Shown here: one piece after another, positions 56,695-61,162 of the stretch
Position numbering within the stretch: the stretch's first letter is position 1
Layout of the letters: each line of letters begins with the position of its first letter
Origin: an alpha proteobacterium HIMB114
GTDB lineage: Bacteria; Pseudomonadota; Alphaproteobacteria; Pelagibacterales; Pelagibacteraceae
Direction of reading: 5' to 3'
Assembly (NCBI GenBank): GCA_000163555.2
Contig: ADAC02000001.1
Location: 124,001-188,000, forward strand
Length of the DNA: 64,000 bases
Notes under the pieces: generated by a model
Told to the model about the DNA's origin: nothing
What the model saw: the letters and a program-made list of their open reading frames with translations, nothing else
Databases searched by the model: none
Translations under genes and position numbers: made by a program

Positions 56695-57864
56695 TTATGA
56701 TTTTGATAGCGATTGATATAAATCTTGTTTTAAATCCTCAATATTTTCAAGTCCAATTGATATTCTGACTAAGTTATTAGTAATATCTAAATTGGCCCTT
56801 TCTTCTTCGCTCAAAACTCTATGAGTAGTTGTTGCAGGGTGAGTAACAAGTGATTTGGTATCTCCAATGTTGTTTGTAATATCAAAAATCTTCAGATTAT
56901 TAATAAACTTATATGTTTTCTCTTTATCACCTTTAATCTTAAAGCTCATTATTGTTCCACCTTTGCTCATAAATTTTCTCGCTAAATCATTTTGTTTGAA
57001 GCTTTCTAAAAATGGATAATTTACTTTTTCGATATTCGAATCACTTTCTAAAAATTTTGCAATTTCAAAAGCATTGTCTGATTGAGAATTAACTCTAAGC
57101 TGAATTGTCTCCAAACTTTTTAATAAAATCCACGCATTAAAAGGACTTATACATGGACCTGTATGTCTAAGGAAAGGTTTTAACGTTTCTTCTTTGAATT
57201 TTTTTGATGTAAGTATTGCACCTCCTAAAACTCTTCCTTGGCCATCAATATGCTTTGTTCCAGAATACACCACGATATCTGCGCCATATTTAATTGGACT
57301 TTGTAATACTGGAGTAGCAAAAATATTATCGACAATAGTTAAGATATTATTATCTTTTGCAAGATCACAAACACTCTTTAAATCTATAATCTCACAACAT
57401 GGGTTAGATGGAGTTTCTAAGAAAAATATTTTTGTATTTTTTTTAATTTTATTTTTCCATTGTTCAAGATCTCTGCCATCAATAAAGTCTACCTCAATTC
57501 CAAACTTAGGAAGTATTTCCTTCAATATATATCTACAAGAACCAAAGAGTGCTGATGCTGATATAACATGATCTCCTGTTCTAAGTTGGCACATCATGGA
57601 ACCAAAAACAGCTGACATGCCGCTAGCAGTTGCAAAACAATCTTCATATCCATCTAGGAGTGCCAATCTTTTTTCAAAAGTATCAATTGTGGGATTGGCA
57701 TATCTTGAATATTGATAGCCAGTTTCTTCTCCTTTAAAAATAGCTTCAGCTTGCTCAGCACTATCATAAACAAATCCTGAATTTAAAAATAGTGCCTCAG
57801 ACGTTTCTTTAAATTGAGATCTTTGCAAACCCCCTCTTACGAGATTTGTTTCCTTGTTTTTCAA
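56695..57864 (-). CDS. metZ: O-succinylhomoserine sulfhydrylase / trans-sulfuration-type PLP enzyme
   Basis: Cys/Met-metabolism PLP enzyme of about 389 aa. NSGFVYDSAEQAE, GYQYSRYANPTIDTFEKRLA, ATASGMSAVFG and the PLP lysine in YSGTKHIDGQGRVLGGAIL identify it; the HIDGQGR form is typical of MetZ, which makes homocysteine directly from an activated homoserine and sulfide. The start appears to be TTG at 57864 with GGGGA just before it, because an in-frame stop lies close upstream and no nearby ATG exists. Third gene of the SAM-II-controlled metF-metE-metZ unit. MetB/MetY activity cannot be excluded. Confidence 0.87.
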   Translation of the reverse strand: MKNKETNLVRGGLQRSQFKETSEALFLNSGFVYDSAEQAEAIFKGEETGYQYSRYANPTIDTFEKRLALLDGYEDCFATASGMSAVFGSMMCQLRTGDHVISASALFGSCRYILKEILPKFGIEVDFIDGRDLEQWKNKIKKNTKIFFLETPSNPCCEIIDLKSVCDLAKDNNILTIVDNIFATPVLQSPIKYGADIVVYSGTKHIDGQGRVLGGAILTSKKFKEETLKPFLRHTGPCISPFNAWILLKSLETIQLRVNSQSDNAFEIAKFLESDSNIEKVNYPFLESFKQNDLARKFMSKGGTIMSFKIKGDKEKTYKFINNLKIFDITNNIGDTKSLVTHPATTTHRVLSEEERANLDITNNLVRISIGLENIEDLKQDLYQSLSKS

Positions 57865-57865
57865 T

Positions 57866-60118
57866 TTATCCCCTTAGTTCTTTTGCAGCAGCGACCATTT
57901 CTTTCAAAGCATCTATAGTTTCCGGCCAACCTCTTGTCTTTAGACCACAATCAGGATTAACCCATAATCTTTTTGGATCAATTTGTTTAGAAGCTTTTTT
58001 GATAAGCTCAACCATCTCTGATTTATTTGGAACTCTTGGAGAATGAATATCATAAACTCCTGGTCCAATTTCATTTGGATATTTGAACTGTTCAAAAGTT
58101 TTTAATAATTCCATTCTTGATCTTGATGTTTCTATCGAAATGACGTCAGCATCAAGTGCTGCAATGGACTCAATAATATCTTCAAACTCAGCATAACACA
58201 TATGAGTATGAATTTGAGTTTCATCCTTAACTACAGCGGCAGAAATTCTAAATGCATTTACAGACCATTTTAGATATTGGTTCCAATCAGCTCGCTTTAA
58301 TGGAAGACCTTCTCTCAAAGCAGGTTCATCAATTTGTATCATTCTAATTCCATTTTTTTCAAGATCTTCAACCTCATCTCTAATTGCAAACGCAATTTGT
58401 TCAGCGGTTGTTTGTCTTGGCTGATCATCTCTTACAAATGACCATTGTAGAATTGTAATTGGGCCTGTTAACATTCCTTTTATAATTGATGAAGTTTGTT
58501 CTTGAGCAAATTTTGACCACCGTACAGTCATTGAATTTGGTCTTGATACATCTCCAAAAATAATTGGTGGTTTCACACATCTTGATCCATAACTTTGGAC
58601 AAATCCACTTGATGTAAAAGTAAACCCTTTTAAGTTTTCACCAAAGTATTCAACCATATCATTTCGTTCAAATTCACCATGAACGATAACATCAATTCCC
58701 AACTCTTCTTGTTGTCTTATTGTTTCAATAGTTTTTTCTTCTAAAAACTTTTCATATTCTTCATTAGAAAGTTCACCTCTTCTATTTTTAGCTCTAGCTT
58801 GCCTTACATCTTTTGTTTGAGGGAAAGATCCAATTGTAGTTGTTGGGTATAAAGGAAGATTAAAAATTTCTCTTTGAATATTTGCTCTTTCTTCATACTT
58901 TGAAACTCGGTTTAAAACACTATCATTAATTGTTTTAATTCTTGTTTTAACAGCTTCATCATGAATAAGTTTAGATTTTTTTCTATCTTCAATATCAGCT
59001 TTATTTTCTGAGAGCTGATCTTTAGCTTTACCATCATTAATATTCTCTTTTAAAATATTTAACTCTTGTAATTTTTGTTTTGCAAAAGCTAACCATTTTT
59101 TTATCTCTCCTGGGACTTTTGTTTCTAAATCTAAGTCATAAGGTGTATGGAGCAATGGACATGAGCTAGATATGATAAAATCATTACTTACTTTTTTGAG
59201 CTCATCAATAATTTTTGATAAATCAGATTTCCATATATTTCTTCCATTTACCACTCCAAGGGATAATGTTTTGTTAGAGTTTTTTATGTAATCTTTATTT
59301 TTTTCTCCTCTAACCAAATCAAGGTGAACAGCATCAATATTTGATGCAAAAACTTCATCTTTTACTTTTTTATTAATACTTTCAAAATAAGTAGTTAAAA
59401 GAATTTTCGAGTCACCTGCTGATAATTTTATTTCATTTAATGTATTTTTAATTTTTGAAACAACATCATCATTTAAATCTTTTACAAAAATTGGTTCATC
59501 AATTTGAATCCATTTTGCGCCAAGTTCATTTAGTTTTTTTACAATCTCTATATAAACTGGAAGAATTTTATCTAACAGATCAATTGTATTAGACCCATCT
59601 ATGGATTTAGCTAGAAGCAAGAATGTAATTGGCCCTAGTATTACTGGCTTAGTTTCAAAACCTGCATTTTTAGCCTCATTAAATTCATCGAAAGGTTTTT
59701 GAGAACTAATTTTGAAATTTTGATCTTTTTTTAGTTCTGGAACTAAATAGTGATAGTTTGTATCAAACCATTTAGTCATCTCTAATGCACCAACATCAAG
59801 ATCTTTTGTTTGAGATCCTCTAGCCATTGCAAAATAAGTATTTAAATTTACATCATCTCCATTCCATCTGTATCTCTCCGGAACAGCGCCTAATAAGCAG
59901 ATCATGTCTAAGACTTGGTCATAAAATGAAAAGTCATTAGAAGTAATTAAATCAATTCCGTTATCTTTTTGAACTTGCCAAACATTTTTTCTTAGTTCTG
60001 CAGCAGTTTTCTGTAGCTCGGCTTCTGAAACATCTCCCTTCCAAAAACTTTCTAATGCTTTTTTAAGCTCTCTTTTTGGTCCAATTCTTGGGTAGCCAAT
60101 AGTTGCAGTTGTGATCAT
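57866..60118 (-). CDS. metE: Cobalamin-independent methionine synthase
   Basis: Methylates homocysteine with 5-methyl-tetrahydropteroyl-polyglutamate and zinc, needing no vitamin B12. The N-terminal domain begins ATIGYPRIGPKRELKKALES. The C-terminal catalytic barrel starts LPLYPTTTIGSFPQTKDVRQ; the zinc ligands are in IHTHMCYAEF (His, Cys) and VNPDCGLKTR (second Cys), with QIDEPALREG. At 750 aa both domains are complete. It overlaps the metF stop by four bases (ATGA). Confidence 0.97.
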   Translation of the reverse strand: MITTATIGYPRIGPKRELKKALESFWKGDVSEAELQKTAAELRKNVWQVQKDNGIDLITSNDFSFYDQVLDMICLLGAVPERYRWNGDDVNLNTYFAMARGSQTKDLDVGALEMTKWFDTNYHYLVPELKKDQNFKISSQKPFDEFNEAKNAGFETKPVILGPITFLLLAKSIDGSNTIDLLDKILPVYIEIVKKLNELGAKWIQIDEPIFVKDLNDDVVSKIKNTLNEIKLSAGDSKILLTTYFESINKKVKDEVFASNIDAVHLDLVRGEKNKDYIKNSNKTLSLGVVNGRNIWKSDLSKIIDELKKVSNDFIISSSCPLLHTPYDLDLETKVPGEIKKWLAFAKQKLQELNILKENINDGKAKDQLSENKADIEDRKKSKLIHDEAVKTRIKTINDSVLNRVSKYEERANIQREIFNLPLYPTTTIGSFPQTKDVRQARAKNRRGELSNEEYEKFLEEKTIETIRQQEELGIDVIVHGEFERNDMVEYFGENLKGFTFTSSGFVQSYGSRCVKPPIIFGDVSRPNSMTVRWSKFAQEQTSSIIKGMLTGPITILQWSFVRDDQPRQTTAEQIAFAIRDEVEDLEKNGIRMIQIDEPALREGLPLKRADWNQYLKWSVNAFRISAAVVKDETQIHTHMCYAEFEDIIESIAALDADVISIETSRSRMELLKTFEQFKYPNEIGPGVYDIHSPRVPNKSEMVELIKKASKQIDPKRLWVNPDCGLKTRGWPETIDALKEMVAAAKELRG

Positions 60119-61011
60119 ATTCTTATTTCTCCTTTTTCTTTTTCTTTCTTTATTTTTAAAAAATTTTTGTAAGATTTTAGTCTCGAACAGACCGCGTAAC
60201 TTAATTCATATTTATTTAAAGTATAAAAATGAAATTCATTAACACCTTCTTTTTGAAGTTTCTTTACCAAGTCAGTTGCAATGCTAGAACCTATCATTTT
60301 TTGAACATCTGGATTATCTTCAGATCCTTCAAATTCTTTTTCTATCCAGGCAGGTACAGAAGTTCCGCATTTATTACTGAAATTTTTAACTCTCTTATAA
60401 TTTTGAATGGGCATGATACCTGGTAATAATTGAATTTTAATTCCTTGTTTTGCAATATCATCTCTAAATTTTAAAAATATATTTTCATCAAAGAAAAATT
60501 GAGTAATGATTCTATCAGCACCTGCATCTACTTTTCTTTTTAGGTTATCTAAATCTAATTCTTTATTTTTTGAGTCTGGATGTATCTCTGGATATCCTGC
60601 AACTGAAATATCAAAATTTGCTAACTTTTTTAAACCAGCGGTCATATCAGCTGCATTTTTATATCCATCAGGATGAGGTTTGTACTGTTCACCTGGCTTA
60701 CGAACATCTCCTCTTAAGGCGACAATTCTTTTTATTCCTTTTTCAAACCAGTTAACAGCGATATCATTGATTTCATCTTTCGACATATCAACGCATGTTA
60801 AATGACCCGCCACTGGAACATTACTTTCTTTTTTAATTTTTTTAACAAAACTGTCAGTTTTTATTCTTTCGCCACCACCAGCACCAAAAGTAACAGAGTA
60901 AAATTGCGGATCAAAGCTTTCAAGTTTTTTTAAACTTTTCCACGCAGCAACTTCATCCTCTGCGTTTTTGGATGGAAAAAATTCAAAACTAAATTTTAAT
61001 TCTTCTTTCAT
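60115..61011 (-). CDS. metF: 5,10-methylenetetrahydrofolate reductase
   Basis: FAD enzyme supplying the methyl-folate used by MetE. The TIM-barrel features are FSFEFFPSKNAEDE (7-20), YSVTFGAGGG, GHLTCVDMS, IVALRGDVRKPG, GADRIITQFFFD and LPGIMPIQNYK. 298 aa. First gene of a three-gene methionine unit. The 114 bases before its ATG form a SAM-II riboswitch and terminator, so the whole unit should be shut down when SAM is plentiful. Confidence 0.96.
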   Translation of the reverse strand: MKEELKFSFEFFPSKNAEDEVAAWKSLKKLESFDPQFYSVTFGAGGGERIKTDSFVKKIKKESNVPVAGHLTCVDMSKDEINDIAVNWFEKGIKRIVALRGDVRKPGEQYKPHPDGYKNAADMTAGLKKLANFDISVAGYPEIHPDSKNKELDLDNLKRKVDAGADRIITQFFFDENIFLKFRDDIAKQGIKIQLLPGIMPIQNYKRVKNFSNKCGTSVPAWIEKEFEGSEDNPDVQKMIGSSIATDLVKKLQKEGVNEFHFYTLNKYELSYAVCSRLKSYKNFLKIKKEKEKGEIRI

Positions 61012-61040
61012 AATTTTAGTTTCAAATTTGCCGGGGAGTA

Positions 61041-61068
61041 AAAAAAAACCACCGGCTAAAGCGGTGGT
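61041..61068 (-). terminator. Intrinsic terminator of the metF leader (riboswitch expression platform)
   Basis: On the minus strand ACCACCG pairs with CGGTGGT around a 7-base loop, followed by a run of T. It lies 30 bases before the metF ATG, so it attenuates metF rather than ending another gene. The segment CGCTTTAGC, spanning its ascending stem and loop, is the exact complement of GCTAAAGCG at the 3' end of the aptamer, so terminator and antiterminator are mutually exclusive. Confidence 0.85.
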
Positions 61069-61075
61069 CTAAATC

Positions 61076-61125
61076 GCTTTAGCAGATTTTATATAGCGCC
61101 CGCAATTTGATATAAATCAGCGCTT
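61076..61125 (-). promoter_or_regulatory. SAM-II (SAM-alpha) riboswitch aptamer
   Basis: The minus strand holds the conserved SAM-II pieces in order: P1 strand AGCGC, GATTTA, ATTGC, the P1 return GGCGCT, ATAAAA and finally GCTAAAG. AGCGC/GCGCT gives a 5-bp P1, and GATTTATAT can form the pseudoknot with ATATAAAATC. The class is common upstream of methionine genes in alphaproteobacteria and marine metagenomes. Here it precedes metF-metE-metZ. Confidence 0.88.
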
Positions 61126-61162
61126 AAGATTGTTTATAATTAAATATTATCTTATGTAAATA

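Follow-up and report, generated by a model that had tools for sequence, protein, structure and literature searches.

A probable SAM-II riboswitch with a co-evolving, loop-centred antiterminator upstream of metF-metE-metZ in the SAR11 bacterium HIMB114

Genes and features of the metF leader

The window, meaning the whole stretch of 64,000 nucleotides that was analysed, carries metF, metE and metZ on its minus strand, with the leader AAGCGCTGATTTATATCAAATTGCGGGCGCTATATAAAATCTGCTAAAGCGATTTAGACCACCGCTTTAGCCGGTGGTTTTTTTTT lying 5′ of this operon (Table 1). The initial annotation had named the operon metF-metE-metZ, and each gene exceeds its NCBIfam cut-off, which places methionine and SAM biosynthesis genes 3′ of the putative aptamer. 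A metF like that of HIMB114 is found in only 20 of the 197 genomes of the family, in four genera; the regulated metF-metE route is therefore a minority trait in the SAR11 family.

A strong intrinsic terminator, ACCACCG-CTTTAGC-CGGTGGT followed by a run of 9 T, lies just 5′ of metF-metE-metZ. It sits between the aptamer and the start codon, the arrangement of a riboswitch that turns genes off by termination. The 1.1-kb stretch contains 4 terminator-like matches, with 0.3 expected from shuffles. On the minus strand GCTAAAGCG (61083-61075) and CGCTTTAGC (61063-61055) are perfect complements over 9 bases, and both 9-mers stand where the initial annotation had placed them. The C and G that begin CGCTTTAGC end the terminator 5′ arm, and the other seven bases of CGCTTTAGC are the terminator loop, so that the claimed overlap with both stem and loop also holds. 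The same palindrome read as a plus-strand terminator (61055-61083, plus) was rejected, since no plus-strand gene of note ends nearby.

The promoter-like site in Table 1 was recognized by eye and is absent from the scanner's list for the 1.1-kb stretch; a similar sequence also lies upstream in the closest relative, L129. An RNA start near 61126 would place P1 at the 5′ end of the transcript. A SAM-II RNA starting at the foot of P1 has been described before (PMC1273637).

Table 1. Features of the leader and operon in window coordinates
Feature	Position	Strand	Basis
Promoter-like TTTACA (61160-61155), 16 nt, TATAAA (61138-61133)	61133..61160	minus	by eye
Putative SAM-II aptamer	61074..61124	minus	RF00521 match 61133-61058; P1+P2 98.7% paired, 61 leaders
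P1 5′ strand AGCGC, partner 61099-61095	61120..61124	minus	helix 98.0% paired, two pairs changed on both sides
P1 3′ strand GCGCU	61095..61099	minus	alignment of 61 leaders
P2 5′ strand: UC (61110-61109) with 61075-61074; UUGC (61105-61102) with GC.AA in 61083-61079	61102..61110	minus	
P2 3′ strand GCUAAAGCGA; first 9 bases double as putative antiterminator 5′ strand	61074..61083	minus	
AUC, predicted antiterminator extension with GGU (61053-61051) of terminator 3′ arm, across a U.C mismatch	61085..61087	minus	76-nt prefix fold
Putative antiterminator 3′ strand CGCUUUAGC: last two terminator 5′-arm bases and entire 7-nt loop	61055..61063	minus	
Terminator 5′ arm ACCACCG	61062..61068	minus	
Terminator 3′ arm CGGUGGU	61048..61054	minus	
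Terminator U tract (9 T)	61040..61048	minus	
CCGGC, possible partner of GCCGG (61056-61052)	61030..61034	minus	predicted from 97 nt on
metF, methylenetetrahydrofolate reductase	60115..61011	minus	TIGR00676 308 bits, cut-off 293.7
metE, B12-independent methionine synthase	57866..60118	minus	TIGR01371 1098 bits, cut-off 929.95
metZ, O-succinylhomoserine sulfhydrylase	56695..57864	minus	TIGR01325 536.6 bits, cut-off 510.05

Assignment of the aptamer to the SAM-II class

The best match to the leader among 4227 Rfam families is RF00521 (SAM_alpha), with 24.7 bits and E 0.001. The search with the SAM-II model, which the initial annotation had proposed, thus yielded a match, but at a score under the gathering cut-off of 36 bits. 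No RF00521 match above the cut-off occurs in any of 197 SAR11-family genomes, and the published bhmT SAM-II leader (L140) has no match to this model at E up to 0.1. The cut-off, a curators' threshold and not a structural feature, is therefore insensitive for SAR11. Annotation of SAR11 SAM-II would need a SAR11-specific model.

The structure was followed in an alignment of 61 SAR11 leaders ending in one kind of terminator. P1, a hairpin with a long loop, and the P2 pseudoknot have 98.7% of their cells paired (98.0% for P1, where two pairs have both sides changed), and doubly changed pairs occur in both helices. UUGC/GC.AA of P2 is invariant, and the P2b pair UA has become AU or GC in 12 sequences, both sides having changed. 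The HIMB114 leader contains the core sequence, that is a GAUUU-type L1, UUGC and GCUAAA, and is homologous to the published SAR11 bhmT SAM-II leader. The conservation and covariation of P1 and P2, this homology and the Rfam match below the cut-off together support assignment of the aptamer to the SAM-II riboswitch class, in line with the identity first proposed. By family membership SAM would be the ligand, and this SAR11 bacterium most likely senses S-adenosylmethionine by a small RNA switch before its methionine genes.

A score under the Rfam cut-off would also fit an aptamer that has degenerated in HIMB114, leaving the hairpins to set a basal level of expression by constitutive attenuation. 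However, the core aptamer bases common to all 61 aligned leaders, those of P2 included, are intact in HIMB114, and in the related genomes L032-L034 the leader still accompanies metF. Loss of sensing is the least probable of the alternatives weighed here.

A SAM-V aptamer downstream of the SAM-II one was rejected, RF01826 matching nowhere in the window at its gathering score and nowhere in the HIMB114 genome at E up to 1. The genome holds a second, weaker SAM-II candidate (L176; G000:C1:1151478-1151546, minus strand; 19.6 bits) 5′ of metX. It is followed by the short hairpin AAATCGC-TAA-GCGATTT, and its platform differs from the metF one.

Conservation, covariation and folding of the antiterminator pairing

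A pattern in which TTGC, GCTAAA and the terminator 3′ arm were fixed, and aptamer positions 7-9 and the terminator loop were left free, matches in 200 of 397 genomes; reversed as a control, it does not appear among the matches listed. In most matches GCTAAAGCG stands with CGCTTTAGC. The aptamer variant GCTAAAACG pairs with CGTTTTAGC, CGTTCTAGC, CGTTGTAGC or CGTAATAGT, GCTAAATAG with CTATTTATC or CTATTTTTC, and GCTAAAGCA with TGCTTTAGA, and a partial case is GCTAAATCG with CGTATTAGC. Where the aptamer strand varies in these matches, the terminator mostly varies to match.

Loss of complementarity in relatives had been named beforehand as evidence against the pairing. It was not seen, for 93.6% of the cells of the antiterminator helix are paired across the 61 leaders. 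Three antiterminator pairs have changed on both sides, in 11 cells, and none of 500 shuffles equals any of these measures, a count that overstates independence because the sequences are related. The double changes convert GCG/CGC to ACG/CGT, TAG/CTA or GCA/TGC at three positions, and given this relatedness we count no fewer than three kinds of compensatory change rather than 11 separate events. When the sequences were crudely clustered into 8 groups, the permutation p was 0.006. Sliding the partner by 1-3 columns in the same alignment left at most 1 pair, with 2 cells, doubly changed. Among the covarying columns are 62 and 88 (position 7), and there the partner base is unpaired in the terminator loop; therefore the terminator cannot explain the covariation. 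In L141 three bases have changed together: aptamer position 8, the terminator 5′-arm base with which it pairs, and the 3′-arm base opposite the latter in the terminator. A base that alternates between two partners should behave in this way.

Not every leader pairs perfectly. L094 is weak, with 6 contiguous pairs and 7 of 9 positions paired; the core of L135 and that of L154 each contain 2 mismatches, and the change in L146 is only partly compensated. A flanking pair, formed by the base before GCTAAA and the base before GGTGG, is present in 17 of 28 leaders with a core mismatch and in 1 of the 33 whose core has none (Fisher 5.5e-7, uncorrected for relatedness), and its types over all leaders are TA 10, AT 7 and TG 1. 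In almost every leader, the CC before the flanking base lies opposite GG in the 3′ arm of the terminator. Since the flanking pair occurs where the core is mismatched, leaders appear to maintain the strength of the antiterminator in more than one way. The retained complementarity and its compensatory changes lend evolutionary support to the antiterminator role that the initial annotation gave to the aptamer 3′ strand.

The complement is common among terminators linked to SAM-II: in 19 of 29, an unbroken run of at least 6 bases complementary to GCTAAAGCG lies within the loop or next to it, whereas none of the 32 other terminator-like hairpins from some 298 kb of SAR11 DNA has such a run. A search of 41 genomes located the stem pattern ACCACC..GGTGGTTTTTT in 13, one copy each and always behind a SAM-II aptamer. 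Could the match of GCTAAAGCG to CGCTTTAGC nevertheless be incidental to a genuine SAM-II aptamer and terminator, SAM acting otherwise, perhaps by way of another antiterminator? The aptamer hardly varies in GCTAAA, hence most of the helix is unable to show two-sided changes, and HIMB114 has a local alternative hairpin, CUAAA-GCGA-UUUAG. The aptamer and terminator loop covary at three positions, however, the control terminators are without the complement, and the CUAAA/UUUAG pairing is already gone in the closest relative, L129 (GCGATTTTG), so that this hairpin was rejected as a general antiterminator. An incidental match is very improbable.

The pairing might also form with the terminator still folded, its loop contacting GCUAAA in a loop pseudoknot, in which case the terminator would block SAM binding and not the reverse. 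Guanidine-IV riboswitches are thought to use a terminator-loop pseudoknot (PMC10907184), and abolition of the SAM-II response by the bhmT linker fits either geometry (PMC11508383). On the other side, the 7-nt loop is flanked directly by both arms, which on geometric grounds would leave no connector across a helix of 7-9 bp. The covarying columns 63 and 87 use terminator stem bases and so exclude the stem, and the extension onto the terminator 3′ arm likewise uses stem bases and excludes it. We consider a loop pseudoknot less probable still than an incidental match, and prefer an antiterminator that replaces the terminator.

In nested ViennaRNA folds, which ignore pseudoknots and SAM, the 9-bp antiterminator helix has -12.2 kcal/mol and the terminator with its extension -12.4. 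The median gap over 79 leaders is 1.3 kcal/mol in favour of the terminator, as computed from nested folds with SAM ignored and the upstream extension excluded. In prefix folds (nested; pseudoknots and polymerase ignored) the antiterminator is predicted at 70-76 nt, then the terminator at 79-91 nt; beyond the U tract the antiterminator is predicted again, joined by GCCGG/CCGGC. As covariation and prefix folding indicate, the antiterminator shares bases with both the aptamer and the terminator, and the structures are mutually exclusive.

GCCGG/CCGGC had been put forward as a stabiliser of the open form. Both sequences are present on the minus strand, but the pair is predicted only once the polymerase is past the terminator, and its register is lost in L128, the third member of the genus. 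A part for it in the termination decision was therefore rejected; because it forms beyond the terminator it can act only after the decision, and it would be a secondary lock at most.

We propose, with a probability of about 0.86, that a SAM-II riboswitch shuts metF-metE-metZ at the level of transcription and that pairing of GCUAAAGCG with CGCUUUAGC is its antiterminator. When SAM is bound, GCUAAAGCGA would be held in the P2 pseudoknot, the terminator hairpin would form without a competitor and RNA polymerase would stop at the U tract. When SAM is absent, GCUAAAGCG, aided by the upstream AUC, would pair with the bases of the terminator loop and stem edge, CGCUUUAGC. Because this 9-bp helix would take up two 5′-arm bases of the terminator, with the remainder of the arm in its own loop, the terminator could not form and transcription would run into metF. 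The antiterminator forms earlier in the predicted order and, without SAM, would win unless displaced. The complementarity, conservation, covariation and predicted energy balance are observed for the metF leader, and SAM-dependent termination and its kinetics are what we infer. The leader would thus be an OFF switch that acts on transcription, and its co-evolving expression platform would be unusually economical. The initial annotation was right in its observation and, as far as sequence evidence goes, its mechanism is supported.

Relation to other SAM-II leaders

Poiata et al. (2009) is reportedly the primary paper on the tandem bhmT riboswitch. Exact targets for the published primers of the tandem bhmT riboswitch of 'Candidatus Pelagibacter ubique' HTCC1062 are present in the genome G026 (L140), with the same numbering (83 and 98). 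Like the HIMB114 leader, this one has the same aptamer type, GCTAAAGCG, a terminator of the same family with CGCTTTAG in its loop and a strong predicted antiterminator. It differs in being a SAM-II/SAM-V tandem, whereas the HIMB114 leader is without SAM-V and controls a different operon.

The SAM-II half of the bhmT tandem RNA loses its SAM response once the linker is attached, and Feng et al., in the portion of their paper available, ascribe the loss to the linker without naming an antiterminator pairing (PMC11508383). The linker of L140 contains CGCUUUAG, and CUAAAGCG of the apo RNA is predicted, in a nested fold, to be in the antiterminator with a probability near 1. Since the linker supplies the antiterminator strand and, in the prediction, sequesters the whole P2 strand, this pairing could explain the otherwise unexplained SAM-II silence (PMC11508383). 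The explanation is incomplete, because antisense primers 2 and 3 rescued SAM binding of the bhmT RNA in the same study (PMC11508383), and nested folds of L140 with the primer 2 and 3 regions blocked still predict the antiterminator. In vivo, bhmT mRNA rises about 34-fold under sulfur limitation (PMC5069961), consistent with transcriptional control of such leaders.

Other SAR11 leaders vary in their platforms. In genus g4 the SAM-II leaders of metX (L018, L020, L021, L023, L028, L030, L083, L084) are without a hairpin terminator. They contain CTCACAATTCA, which is nearly complementary to TGAATTGCGAG in the aptamer, the inner part of this match being AAAAAAAC with GTTTTTTT. Possibly these leaders have another alternative fold, one that would disrupt the aptamer from the 5′ side. 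L135, L136, L148, L151 and L154 have SAM-II and the HIMB114 kind of terminator, and then a sequence that by eye is SAM-V-like. The genes that follow are not the usual methionine genes: they resemble genes for a sulfurtransferase (L135, L148), a CysH-like reductase (L136) or a peroxiredoxin (L151, L154). L096, L099, L108 and L118 carry a translational-looking SAM-II variant that has a long loop as well as GCTAAAGGAGGCAAATG or similar, and a Shine-Dalgarno sequence directly after the P2 strand.

As of 2007, experiments had not yet shown how SAM-II aptamers act on their terminators (PMC2258182). For SAR11, which ranks among the most abundant ocean bacteria, the covariation now points to a definite switch helix that can be mutated. 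On balance, we favour a platform common to SAR11 SAM-II riboswitches: the antiterminator would be the P2 strand that contacts the ligand, and not an extension at the periphery, its partner would be the terminator apical loop, so that aptamer and loop co-evolve, and the same pairing would shut SAM binding in the bhmT tandem. The point of interest is this loop-centred, co-evolving antiterminator, and the claim to novelty is modest.

The SAM-II riboswitch of Sinorhizobium meliloti metZ has P1 and a P2 pseudoknot, GCUAAA and a downstream terminator, and is a predicted OFF switch (PMC1273637, PMC9373788). Other alphaproteobacterial SAM-II leaders (RF00521) share with HIMB114 the P1 and P2 pseudoknot, the GCUAAA 3′ strand and the downstream terminator; the HIMB114 switch would target metF-metE-metZ, unlike the S. 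meliloti metZ example. Within SAR11, the metX SAM-II leaders resemble that of HIMB114 in that the loop of their terminator, GCCCAGTTTAGCTGGGC, is complementary to the aptamer 3′ strand, but the terminator stem is unrelated and the complement covers GCUAAA and the preceding bases, not GCG. At non-SAR11 loci the P2 3′ strand can also serve as antiterminator, as in HIMB114. In the terminator-bearing leaders of those other alphaproteobacterial families, however, an extension of P2 (AGGUCGG and variants) pairs mainly with the terminator 5′ arm, whereas in HIMB114 the partner of the GCUAAAGCG core is the loop together with the edge of each arm. The loop-centred antiterminator therefore looks like a SAR11 variant.
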